Part shown: positions 1,650 through 15,495 of the stretch, piece by piece
Layout of the letters: every line of letters starts with the position of its first letter
Position numbering within the stretch: position 1 is the first letter of the stretch
Assembly (NCBI GenBank): GCA_022563275.1
Contig: JADFNR010000064.1
Coordinates: 1-19,590 of the forward strand
Direction of reading: 5' to 3'
DNA length: 19,590 nt
DNA from: Chloroflexota bacterium
GTDB lineage: Bacteria; Chloroflexota; Dehalococcoidia; UBA3495
Position numbers and translations under genes: made by a program
Notes under the pieces: model-generated
The model's input: only the letters and a program-made list of their open reading frames with translations
Told to the model about the DNA's origin: nothing
The model's database searches: none

Positions 1650-1728
1650 TGGTGGAGCTGCGCCCCGATTCATCGGGGGAACCCCGTGCCTTCCCGATGG
1701 CGATCGGGACGCTCTCCCGGATGAGCTA
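1650..1728 (-). pseudogene. degenerate tRNA-Ala-like copy A with palindromic arms
   Basis: On minus this begins TAGCTCATC, matching the D arm of the intact tRNA-Ala at 1986-2061, and ends in the tRNA-Ala acceptor sequence GCAGCTCCACCA followed by AATCC. The first seven acceptor bases are missing. The anticodon arm is replaced by a palindrome (TCCCGAT 1692-1698 and ATCGGGA 1703-1709). The T arm is enlarged by a second one (CCCCGAT 1663-1669 and ATCGGGG 1672-1678). It cannot fold as a working tRNA. Its first bases form the stop codon of the GIY-YIG ORF. The 17 bases at 1646-1662 are an exact direct repeat of 1982-1998, at the 3' end of the real tRNA. Confidence 0.75.
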
Positions 1729-1974
1729 GGTATCGAGGTGCAATTGCGACTCTAGATAAGAGCGGCTCTTCCAAGATTTTAACTGTGATTCTCTTTGTCT
1801 GGCCTCAGATAGGGAGTCAAATTCTTCTTGATGGACCAACCGCCAAGGGCGAAAACTTTTCGTTGATTTTGTCATTCCAGCATTGTGCTGCTCTACCCGA
1901 TTCTGTATATCTCCGGTACTCCCTATGTAATAACGACCGGTGCGTTCACTACGGAGAAGGTAGACATAGAACAT
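1726..1974 (-). CDS. GIY-YIG nuclease-domain protein (copy 1)
   Basis: An 82-residue single-domain GIY-YIG endonuclease of the small UPF0213/YhbQ-like type. YVY at residues 3-5 and YIG at 16-18 form the signature. Arg26, His30 and Glu62 (in RESQLKSW) are the expected catalytic or metal-binding positions. The C-terminus is basic, then short. Proteins of this family cut DNA using one divalent metal; the target here is unknown. The start codon lies only 11 bases downstream of the encoded CCA end of tRNA-Ala, without a Shine-Dalgarno, so it would be read from the tRNA transcript. The stop codon TAG is the first homologous base triplet of the degenerate tRNA-like copy A. The ORF is thus inserted exactly between two tRNA-Ala-related sequences, as expected for a mobile or homing element. 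Confidence 0.85.
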   Translation of the reverse strand: MFYVYLLRSERTGRYYIGSTGDIQNRVEQHNAGMTKSTKSFRPWRLVHQEEFDSLSEARQRESQLKSWKSRSYLESQLHLDT

Positions 1975-6080: not shown

Positions 6081-6106
6081 CAAAAGCTGGCTCAGGTGAG
6101 CTTTTG
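6081..6106 (+). terminator. possible Rho-independent terminator after amidase 1
   Basis: CAAAAGCT (6081-6088) pairs with AGCTTTTG (6099-6106). The stem ends in TTTT. It is 79 bases after the amidase stop and abuts the REP-like repeat that begins at 6105. Confidence 0.5.
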
Positions 6107-6208
6107 TCATTCTGAGGCGTAAGCCGAAGAATCTCGTTGCTAGGCAACTTAGGCTGTGTGAGAACAAAAAGACCCTTCTCCCGACTCCAGTTGGGATCAG
6201 GGTGACAA
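6105..6208. repeat. REP/MITE-like element R1 (TGTCA...TGACA)
   Basis: It starts TTGTCATTCTGAGG and ends GGGTGACAA. The left end folds into a hairpin (6109-6132): ATTCT/AGAAT, then a tandem G-A mismatch, then GGC/GCC. CTCGTTGCT follows, as in R2. The right end has an ACCCT (6172-6176) / AGGGT (6199-6203) hairpin. It is related to R2-R5 but its right half is diverged. Confidence 0.7.
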
Positions 6209-7755: not shown

Positions 7756-7847
7756 TGTCACCCCGAGTGGAGCGAGGGGTCTCGTTGCTCTCGGCTGGCG
7801 TGGTACTCCCAGCAACGAGATTCCTAGGCTCACGCCTCGGAATGACA
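7756..7847. repeat. REP/MITE-like element R2 (92 bp)
   Basis: A clean short member of the repeat family. It starts TGTCACCCCGAG and ends CTCGGAATGACA. Inner arms TCTCGTTGCT and AGCAACGAGA are exact inverted repeats. Each end folds into its own hairpin: ACCCC/GGGGT on the left, ATTCC/GGAAT with an inner GGC/GCC on the right. It lies between convergent genes and has no ORF. Confidence 0.85.
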
Positions 7848-10412: not shown

Positions 10413-10420
10413 ACTTGCGC

Positions 10421-10535
10421 TGTCACCCCGAGCGAAGCGAGGGGTCTCACCGCTTGCTGTAAACCGTCCATGCGAACCCCAGAACGGGCTTCCCGAGCAA
10501 CGTGATTTCTCGTCATTTCACTCCTCGGAATGACA
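10421..10535. repeat. REP/MITE-like element R3 (115 bp)
   Basis: It starts TGTCACCCCGAGCGAAGCGA and ends CTCGGAATGACA. The left end folds as CCCC-GA-GC-GAA-GC-GA-GGGG, with a tandem G-A mismatch. The interior of about 46 bases has no ORF. It repeats as R4 at exactly 141 bases. Confidence 0.85.
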
Positions 10536-10561
10536 GATAAGGTGGTGTTGTCCTCGCCTGC

Positions 10562-10676
10562 CGTCACCATGGGCGAAGCGAGTGGTCTCATTGCTCGCTG
10601 CAAACCGTCGGTGCGAATTCCAGAACGGTCTTCTTGAGCAACGAGATTCCTCGTCGTTTCACTCTTCGGAATGACA
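10562..10676. repeat. REP/MITE-like element R4 (115 bp)
   Basis: A copy of R3, offset by 141 bases and the same length, with scattered substitutions. A left-end change (CACCATGGGCGA for CACCCCGAGCGA) weakens its terminal hairpin. The spacers after R3 and R4 (GATA.GGTGGTGTTG...CTCGCCT) are also alike, so the whole 141-bp unit was duplicated. Confidence 0.85.
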
Positions 10677-10702
10677 GATAGGGTGGTGTTGCACTCGCCT
10701 AA

Positions 10703-11086
10703 TGTCACCCCGAGTGAAGCGAGGGGTCTCATTGCTGTGGACCTACCTTGTACCAGCCTTCGGACAGGTCTTTCCACCCGGGATTGGCCGCTTCAATCAG
10801 GTCTATCTTCTTAGAGCGTCTCCATCTCTTAATCTCCTTTTCGCGGGAGATTGCTCCTTCAACGTTGCTGGTAGTGTCGAAATAGACCAGACGATTGATC
10901 TTATATCGTTTGGTGAATCCTTCAGATGAACCTGACTTGTGTTCATAGACCCGTCGTTCCAAGTCGTTTGTTACCCCGACATAGAGAGTCCGTGACCGGT
11001 TGGTCATGATGTAGACATAGTATTGGCTAGCCATGGTGGGTTGTTCAGCAACGAGATTCCTCGTCATTTCACTCCTCGGAATGACA
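10703..11086. mobile_element. REP-flanked GIY-YIG element R5 (384 bp)
   Basis: The left end (10703-10735) is the same as in R3 and R4, in phase with the 141-bp period. The right end (about 11045-11086, AGCAACGAGATTCCTCGTC...GGAATGACA) is the same as the right ends of R3 and R4. Between them, in place of the roughly 46-base interior, is a GIY-YIG ORF on minus. The element therefore looks like the complete form of which R2-R4 are ORF-less derivatives. No target-site duplication can be called with confidence, because the termini are palindromic and the left flank is shared with R4. Confidence 0.7.
10729..11067 (-). CDS. GIY-YIG nuclease-domain protein (copy 2)
   Basis: Read from the ATG at 11067 this is a 112-residue single-domain GIY-YIG endonuclease. 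The signature is YVY at residues 17-19 and YVG at 29-31. Arg38/39, His43 and Glu76 (SREKEIKRW) are the expected active-site positions. The tail is basic, then Trp-rich. It is a different subtype from copy 1 at 1726-1974. The ATG at 11067 and a GAGGAG in front of it both lie in the right terminal repeat. An inner ATG at 11034 (MASQYYVYIM, 101 residues) has no Shine-Dalgarno but starts just before the domain. The last two codons and the stop (10729-10731) lie in the left terminal repeat. Function as the mobility enzyme of the repeat is inferred. Confidence 0.85.
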   Translation of the reverse strand: MTRNLVAEQPTMASQYYVYIMTNRSRTLYVGVTNDLERRVYEHKSGSSEGFTKRYKINRLVYFDTTSNVEGAISREKEIKRWRRSKKIDLIEAANPGWKDLSEGWYKVGPQQ

Positions 11087-15410: not shown

Positions 15411-15454
15411 GAAAAAGACCCCTCGCTTCACTGGTAGTGAAAACGAGGGGTCTT
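15411..15454 (-). terminator. terminator hairpin after sortase, built from REP-like sequence
   Basis: AAGACCCCTCG (15415-15425) pairs with CGAGGGGTCTT (15444-15454), extended by TTCACT (15427-15432) with AGTGAA (15436-15441). On minus it is followed by a TTTTT run, a good intrinsic terminator for the sortase gene; plus-strand termination of the CBS gene is weaker. GACCCCTCGCTTCACT is identical to a stretch of repeat R5 read on the other strand, so the terminator seems derived from that family. Confidence 0.75.
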
Positions 15455-15495
15455 GGCGGTTTGGCAGACCGCTGAAAGCTGGCAGCTCGACGCCG

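Follow-up and report, generated by a model that had tools for sequence, protein, structure and literature searches.

A REPIN-like unit in which inverted palindromic arms enclose a small GIY-YIG nuclease gene, recurring in many phyla

The closest described counterpart of the element considered here is the RAYT-REP system, in which repetitive extragenic palindromes (REPs), and the paired REPs known as REPINs, accompany the gene for a RAYT transposase. In that system REPs are described as occurring also alone and in clusters, with few gene copies per genome, and the authors state that a change of place was not found for RAYTs (Nunvar et al. 2010, PMC2817692). We compare with this system a unit, here called R5, from a 19,590-nucleotide stretch of bacterial-looking chromosomal DNA (the window; Chloroflexota bacterium, assembly GCA_022563275.1, contig JADFNR010000064.1). 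R5 is REPIN-like, in that two inverted palindromic arms lie around a GIY-YIG gene, and the arrangement recurs in many phyla. It occupies positions 10703..11086 (384 bp, with edges TGTCA and TGACA) and consists of a TGTCA-headed left arm (TGTCACCCCGAG..GAGGGGTCTCATTGCT, 10703..10736, plus strand), an open reading frame (ORF) on the minus strand and an inverted right arm (TGTCATTCCGAG..GAGGAATCTCGTTGCT, 11046..11086, minus strand). Gene and repeats appear, vanish and relocate together, which at the level of sequence suggests one block behaving like a minimal mobile element. The preliminary description of this locus, in which the nuclease mobilises or copies the palindromes much as RAYTs do their REPs, was partly confirmed as an observation and partly supported as an interpretation.

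The likeness to RAYT-REP lies in the inverted REPs around the gene, seen in R5 and in 29 of the 59 related loci that have repeat ends on both sides, and in the gene-less and clustered REPs and the few gene copies per genome. The enzyme differs, being a GIY-YIG protein (PF01541 is its sole Pfam domain at E<=0.001, with E 5.9e-15, as the preliminary description had read it) in which the IS200/IS605-type transposase domain (PF01797) was not found; the REP differs, R5 having a TGTCA head and an imperfect palindrome where RAYT REPs have a GT(A/G)G head; and in GIY-YIG units the inverted order is common but not constant, and the unit changes place. The system thus appears to work like RAYT-REP, yet departs from it in two features that define it: neither the transposase domain nor the REP head is shared. 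A nearer relative may be Ssn of Neisseria, reportedly a small GIY-YIG nuclease with many homologs whose target is the NTS repeats, said to number hundreds of copies; Chenal, Veyrier and others (Nat Commun 2025) reportedly describe it as a nuclease that cuts single strands at specific sites and modulates transformation. The R5 protein is likewise a small, single-domain GIY-YIG nuclease, and it probably belongs to the Ssn/NTS family. In view of that family, the earlier remark that such a unit has no established name is probably wrong. A mobile unit of nuclease and REPIN, with sites both filled and empty, is not known to have been described for Ssn, and no GIY-YIG-REP unit was recognised in the literature among the matches listed, judged by title and start of abstract. 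The dRS3 elements of Neisseria, of which there are nearly 700 copies, are 20 bp long and contain an inverted repeat of 6 bp; no nuclease is mentioned in the passage that describes them (PMC10745880).

Other known GIY-YIG proteins are more remote. The UPF0213 proteins (PDB 1zg2 and 1ywl, with E of 9.8e-8 and 2.7e-4) share the domain, and no other PDB sequence matches at E<=0.01, but they are distant, and the match, over profile positions 4-82 of 100, does not take in the tail NPxWxDLSxGW. The GIY-YIG homing endonucleases modelled by TIGR01453 (group I intron endonuclease) match the start of the domain weakly, at 20.6 bits, far below the cut-off of 56.05; no intron was seen at the locus, and there are clean empty sites without a REP. 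Such REP-free sites are found in four genomes (G031, G144, G143 and G111), whilst at some ORF-less Winogradskyella sites a REP or REPIN is still present.

Scanning of genome contigs confirmed at least 559 relatives, of which the best 80 were kept; these are the nearest kin and not a random sample, and their record titles name Chloroflexi, Planctomycetes, Bacteroidetes, Cyanobacteria, Zixibacteria, Acidobacteria, Nitrospina and Patescibacteria. Repeat ends of the pattern TGTCA[TC][TC][CG] were sought within 250 bp on either side of the ORF, full flanks being present at 75 of the 80 loci and the remaining 5 kept in the count. Ends lie on both sides at 59 of the 80 and on at least one side at 74, with a density of 5.98 per kb beside the ORF as against 0.41 per kb elsewhere in these loci. 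Two-sided placement was found for 102 of 12,156 random positions in the same loci and for 4 of 714 other ORFs of 80-401 codons, neither control being matched for intergenic position. The ends of the 59 two-sided loci are ordered '><' in 29, '>>' in 13, '<<' in 11 and '<>' in 6, so that the inverted order accounts for 29/59 compared with 13/102 among control cases; the 29 units with this order are 347-567 bp long (median 405). A further comparison is offered by a different, tRNA-linked GIY-YIG lineage, for which 19 of 20 loci were used (L248 was left out as it overlaps L238): one has ends on both sides and two have any. Six of these 19 also match our nuclease model, A1, namely the two with ends (L249 and L244) and four without (L243, L245, L246 and L247), the latter indicating that weaker members of the family often lack arms; with the six removed, none of the 13 has an end within 250 bp. 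It could be argued that REPs simply gather in intergenic space and that a small intergenic gene falls among them by chance, and the REPs are indeed intergenic and the controls unmatched in this respect. We consider this most improbable given the contrast of 59/80 with 4/714 for other ORFs, the 13 unflanked loci of the other lineage, and the fact that the edges of homology between relocated units fall at the arms. Separately, the densest of the 80 loci, L021, is a 12,291-bp stretch of one Nitrospina contig with 55 TGTCA-type ends.

The arms themselves are coherent within a locus. Amongst 68 loci with a full hairpin (the window counted), the two arms of the 49 that have a hairpin on both sides differ by a median distance of 0.07, as against 0.28 between loci. 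At four stem positions, Watson-Crick pairing is seen in 97-99% of 67 arms, taken one per locus, compared with shuffle means of 52-91%, and the observed pairing was reached by 0, 0, 10 and 0 of 2,000 shuffles; the end motif fixes a pyrimidine and a purine in the stem but not which pair they form, and the stem letters covary. One arm, at L074, reads ATTCCC-N8-GGGAAT, which appears to fit the dRS3 consensus of Neisseria.

Turning to the gene, the columns that are invariant in a 30-row alignment include Y16, Y29, R38, R39, H43, E76 and N95. As described previously, the stop codon (10729-10731) and the last two codons (QQ) lie inside the left arm. The description had also placed the start within the right repeat, and the ATG (11065-11067) with its GAGGAG is present in the window, but it is not conserved: none of six orthologs has Met there, and four (L210, L211, L212 and L213) have an in-frame stop between the repeat and the conserved MxRQYY start. 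A repeat-borne start codon was rejected on these grounds, and the real coding sequence is likely to be 10729..11034 on the minus strand (101 aa), its start set by ortholog comparison. The ratio dN/dS between the window and its relatives is 0.065 (L212), 0.060 (L215) and 0.187 (L210), with dS of 0.75-1.58 making these poor estimates. The ORF is disrupted in L213 and L214, and in L210 a W replaces the G of the YVG motif, so that this nuclease may be inactive. L212 holds a truncated second copy made up of codons 1-39 and the right arm.

The window site was compared in 50 genomes of the family and scored solely where both flanks lay on one contig with clear homology. It is filled in six genomes (G001, G137, G140, G141, G146 and G147), which carry 23-82 matches to the REP pattern, and empty in G144, G143 and G111, where gaps of 18, 34 and 53 bp contain no REP; G125 has a 115-bp gap, also without a REP, and G144 has two further A1 matches elsewhere. 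In a tree of the right-hand amidase, the empty G143 is nested among the filled genomes with 97/99 support, and the other two, G144 and G111, branch outside this clade. Presence at this site therefore looks old, and G143 has most likely lost the unit. In the window lineage, the unit appears to be inherited at one site, decaying or lost in some members. Empty orthologous sites, proposed earlier as a check on the boundaries of the element, were thus found, three here and a clean one in Winogradskyella G031. The ORF was never seen armless at the window locus, all six filled relatives having at least recognisable arms, but the repeats also occur in genomes that lack the ORF, so that the conditions named beforehand for refuting the preliminary reading were answered in a mixed way.

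Relocation is clearest in Winogradskyella, where 68 genomes were compared. At the site of L062 the ORF is present in G023, G086, G026 and G044, and probably in G056, where the contig ends; in G047 and G037 the flanking genes lie, by match, 86 and 54 bp apart with REP or REPIN remains between them. The ORF is found elsewhere in G037, G040, G073, G094 and G075. The units of G073 and G094 sit at unrelated sites and are 83% alike, with homology running over 1012-1411 and 941-1342 and the arms over 1013-1411 and 942-1342, respectively; no other match was found in the 2.3-2.4 kb compared, all pairwise unit comparisons being filtered to same-strand matches of more than 60 bp. G073 and G075 share a neighbourhood in which the unit stands on opposite sides of one ~360-400-bp stretch. 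The unit of G094, for which G031 has the clean empty site, is surrounded by a direct repeat of ~37 bp (86% alike) at the start of a DUF6090 gene; since an array of DUF6090 paralogs lies there, recombination could also explain this repeat. By eye, there is a possible target duplication of ~9 bp at L169 and none is evident at L173. An integron was also considered for the repeated sequence adjoining the L172 unit, but this sequence is the start of DUF6090 genes and the idea was abandoned. Outside this genus, one Eremiobacterota genome has two copies of the unit with 621 bp in common at 84%, ORF and arms included, and in Nostoc the unit flanks could be located in G097 and G098, where they enclose a different and larger stretch. 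G097 also has 27 places that match a ~100-140-bp stretch just downstream of the L045 GIY-YIG ORF, and 4 that match its upstream side.

These observations need to be weighed against a different account, in which the protein is a resident enzyme that, as is reported for Ssn, uses REPs as cutting sites and so shapes recombination or DNA uptake; the REPs would then spread by other means and the gene would sit among them through this functional link. The low dN/dS (0.06-0.19, with dS poorly estimated), the low copy number of the nuclease, its retention at one site across relatives and the presence of up to 324 REPs in genomes without a nuclease match would all fit such an enzyme. Relocation with the arms as edges would not, nor would the loss or breakage of the unit in relatives, which is unlike the fate of a needed enzyme, and on balance we regard this account as unlikely, if still worth serious consideration.

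Nuclease and REPs also tend to be found in the same genomes, in counts that ignore kinship and include many draft metagenome-assembled genomes (MAGs) in the class sample. Of 197 class genomes, the nuclease is present in 82 (at 1e-10) and the REP pattern (TGTCA-type palindromes) in 85, whilst a backward control pattern matched none of them. REPs are present in 54 of the 82 genomes with the nuclease (E<=1e-10) and in 31 of the 115 without; for a close nuclease (E<=1e-38, a threshold picked after the fact) the figures are 29/30 and 56/167. In the family sample of 49 genomes, the nuclease is present in 26 (at 1e-15) and REPs in 32; REPs occur in 21/26 with the nuclease and 11/23 without (p 0.02), and at least 10 REPs are present in 11/11 genomes with a close nuclease compared with 17/38 others. 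As an aside, the 2.2-Mb genome G157 has 16 matches to the nuclease model, several of them interrupted by stops or placed at the end of a contig, which may reflect a burst of copying or a mixed bin.

The window holds further REPINs of the same kind but without a gene, with which R5 shares its arms. R3 (10421..10535) and R4 (10562..10676) lie with R5 between two amidase genes (PF01425) and belong to two tandem 141-bp repeats (10419-10559 and 10560-10700, 84% alike), R3 in the first and R4, the left head of which is degenerate (CGTCA), in the second. The arms of R2 (7756..7847) are also like those of R5, so that the match of inverted ends first noted for R3 and R4 held and extends to R2; R1 (6105..6207) is a facing pair of related but less similar arms. 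The closest relative among the best 80, the Chloroflexi MAG contig L001, is orthologous across most of the window at 76-83% identity in four long BLAST pieces. It lacks R3 and R4, R1 was not seen in it and a different REPIN occupies the position of R2. R3 and R4 were not seen in the six relatives with a filled R5 site, and L213 carries another REPIN at that site.

Taken together, we lean modestly towards an explanation in which R5 is a compact nuclease-REP unit whose arms are the putative recognition sites of its own nuclease, and in which cutting by the nuclease would seed copies of REPs, REPINs and the unit. That the arms are the targets is indicated by their coherence within a locus, the covariation of their stems and the co-occurrence of nuclease and REPs. 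The nuclease would recognise and cut the hairpin formed by the REP, with single-stranded DNA (the lagging strand or incoming DNA) as the likeliest substrate in view of the work reported on Ssn. The block behaviour of the unit suggests a last and least certain step, in which repair of the broken end, or copying that starts from it, would occasionally place a REP, a REPIN or the entire unit at a new position. Gene-less REPINs such as R2-R4 would then be sites multiplied with the help of the nuclease or by plain tandem duplication. If the nuclease does act on its arms, the RAYT-REP arrangement has arisen more than once with unrelated nucleases, and a defined unit with filled and empty sites makes the origin of the TGTCA-type palindromes found in 85 of 197 class genomes directly testable.

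Several results weigh against this explanation. Orders other than the inverted one are found at 30 of the 59 loci with ends on both sides, and the copy number of the nuclease is low (1-6 per genome in 30 genomes). Folding of four window-type arms was no better than that of shuffles, though one Winogradskyella arm does fold strongly (z -4.78); distances between proteins and between REPs correlate weakly (Mantel r 0.15, p 0.025, 68 loci, kinship uncorrected). Two Winogradskyella species have only 4 and 3 REP ends in 200 kb each, mostly at the unit site, numbers too low for duplication statistics to be drawn from REPIN indels. The preliminary description saw R2-R4 as derivatives of R5 resembling miniature inverted-repeat transposable elements (MITEs). 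As in insertion sequences (IS) and MITEs, terminal inverted repeats form the edges of the moved block, but derivation of the short elements by internal deletion of a full one found no support: the interiors of R2-R4 align with that of R5 no better than 1,000 shuffles (p 0.92, 0.81 and 0.88), as does that of the L213 REPIN with the unit interior (p 0.35), and R2-R4 were rejected as ORF-deleted MITEs. Lastly, no REP of this pattern occurs in 5/26 family genomes with a nuclease match, and 9/49 have 19-324 REPs yet no match at 1e-15; for G149, G119, G122 and G130, with 324, 214, 194 and 101 REPs, no A1-type nuclease was found. A search of the nine genomes for any GIY-YIG protein gave 23 matches, of which 13 loci were inspected; none has ends on both sides and L265 has a single end, the other ten matches being mostly in UvrC-sized frames. 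REPs can therefore be maintained where no nuclease of this type resides, possibly through loss of the nuclease or through another agent. The proposed step by which the nuclease itself would be the mover is weakened by these genomes, whilst the inverted REPs around the gene, the spread over many phyla, the presence and absence as a block, the relocation and the clean empty site support a RAYT-like unit.

The same REP-rich genomes, in which RAYTs and IS transposases were not searched for, and their 13 unbracketed loci could instead point to an agent acting in trans, such as a RAYT or IS transposase, that moves unit and REPs alike with the GIY-YIG gene as cargo. A cargo gene would leave unexplained why one nuclease family recurs within such arms in many phyla, and why arms differ between loci and match within them, and we think a trans-acting mover decidedly improbable.

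The nuclease-driven explanation may extend to the second small GIY-YIG ORF of the window (1726-1974, minus strand, Pfam E 1.9e-17). Within the region 1653-2275, this ORF has tRNA-Ala(GGC) (1986-2061) on one side and a partial, degenerate tRNA copy on the other, beyond which two more tandem 106-bp copies follow. Its relatives comprise 20 matches in 18/49 genomes, with 7 loci beside tRNA-Ala and 2 near tRNA-Asn. A partial tRNA copy of ~50 bp or longer stands on the far side in 6 of the 7 tRNA-Ala loci, and both tRNA-Asn loci have partial copies there, the ORF being bracketed by tRNA-Asn and partial tRNA-Asn copies at L237 926-1805 (which contains a run of N) and L239 766-1272. By eye, the anticodon arm reads as another palindrome in several of the partial copies. 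A joint reading, which we put forward tentatively and hold to be possible rather than probable, would be a nuclease-driven REP system beside that of the RAYTs: a GIY-YIG gene bounded by its own palindromic targets would be among the smallest self-mobilising units (~350-570 bp, in many bacterial phyla), cutting hairpins in single-stranded DNA, inserting with target duplications of variable length and seeding gene-less REPINs, with the sister lineage acting likewise at tRNA genes. Elsewhere in the window, a separate palindrome at 15416-15455 (AGACCCCTCG..CGAGGGGTCT), just downstream of a gene, has its outer letters in common with the REP arms and may be a terminator.
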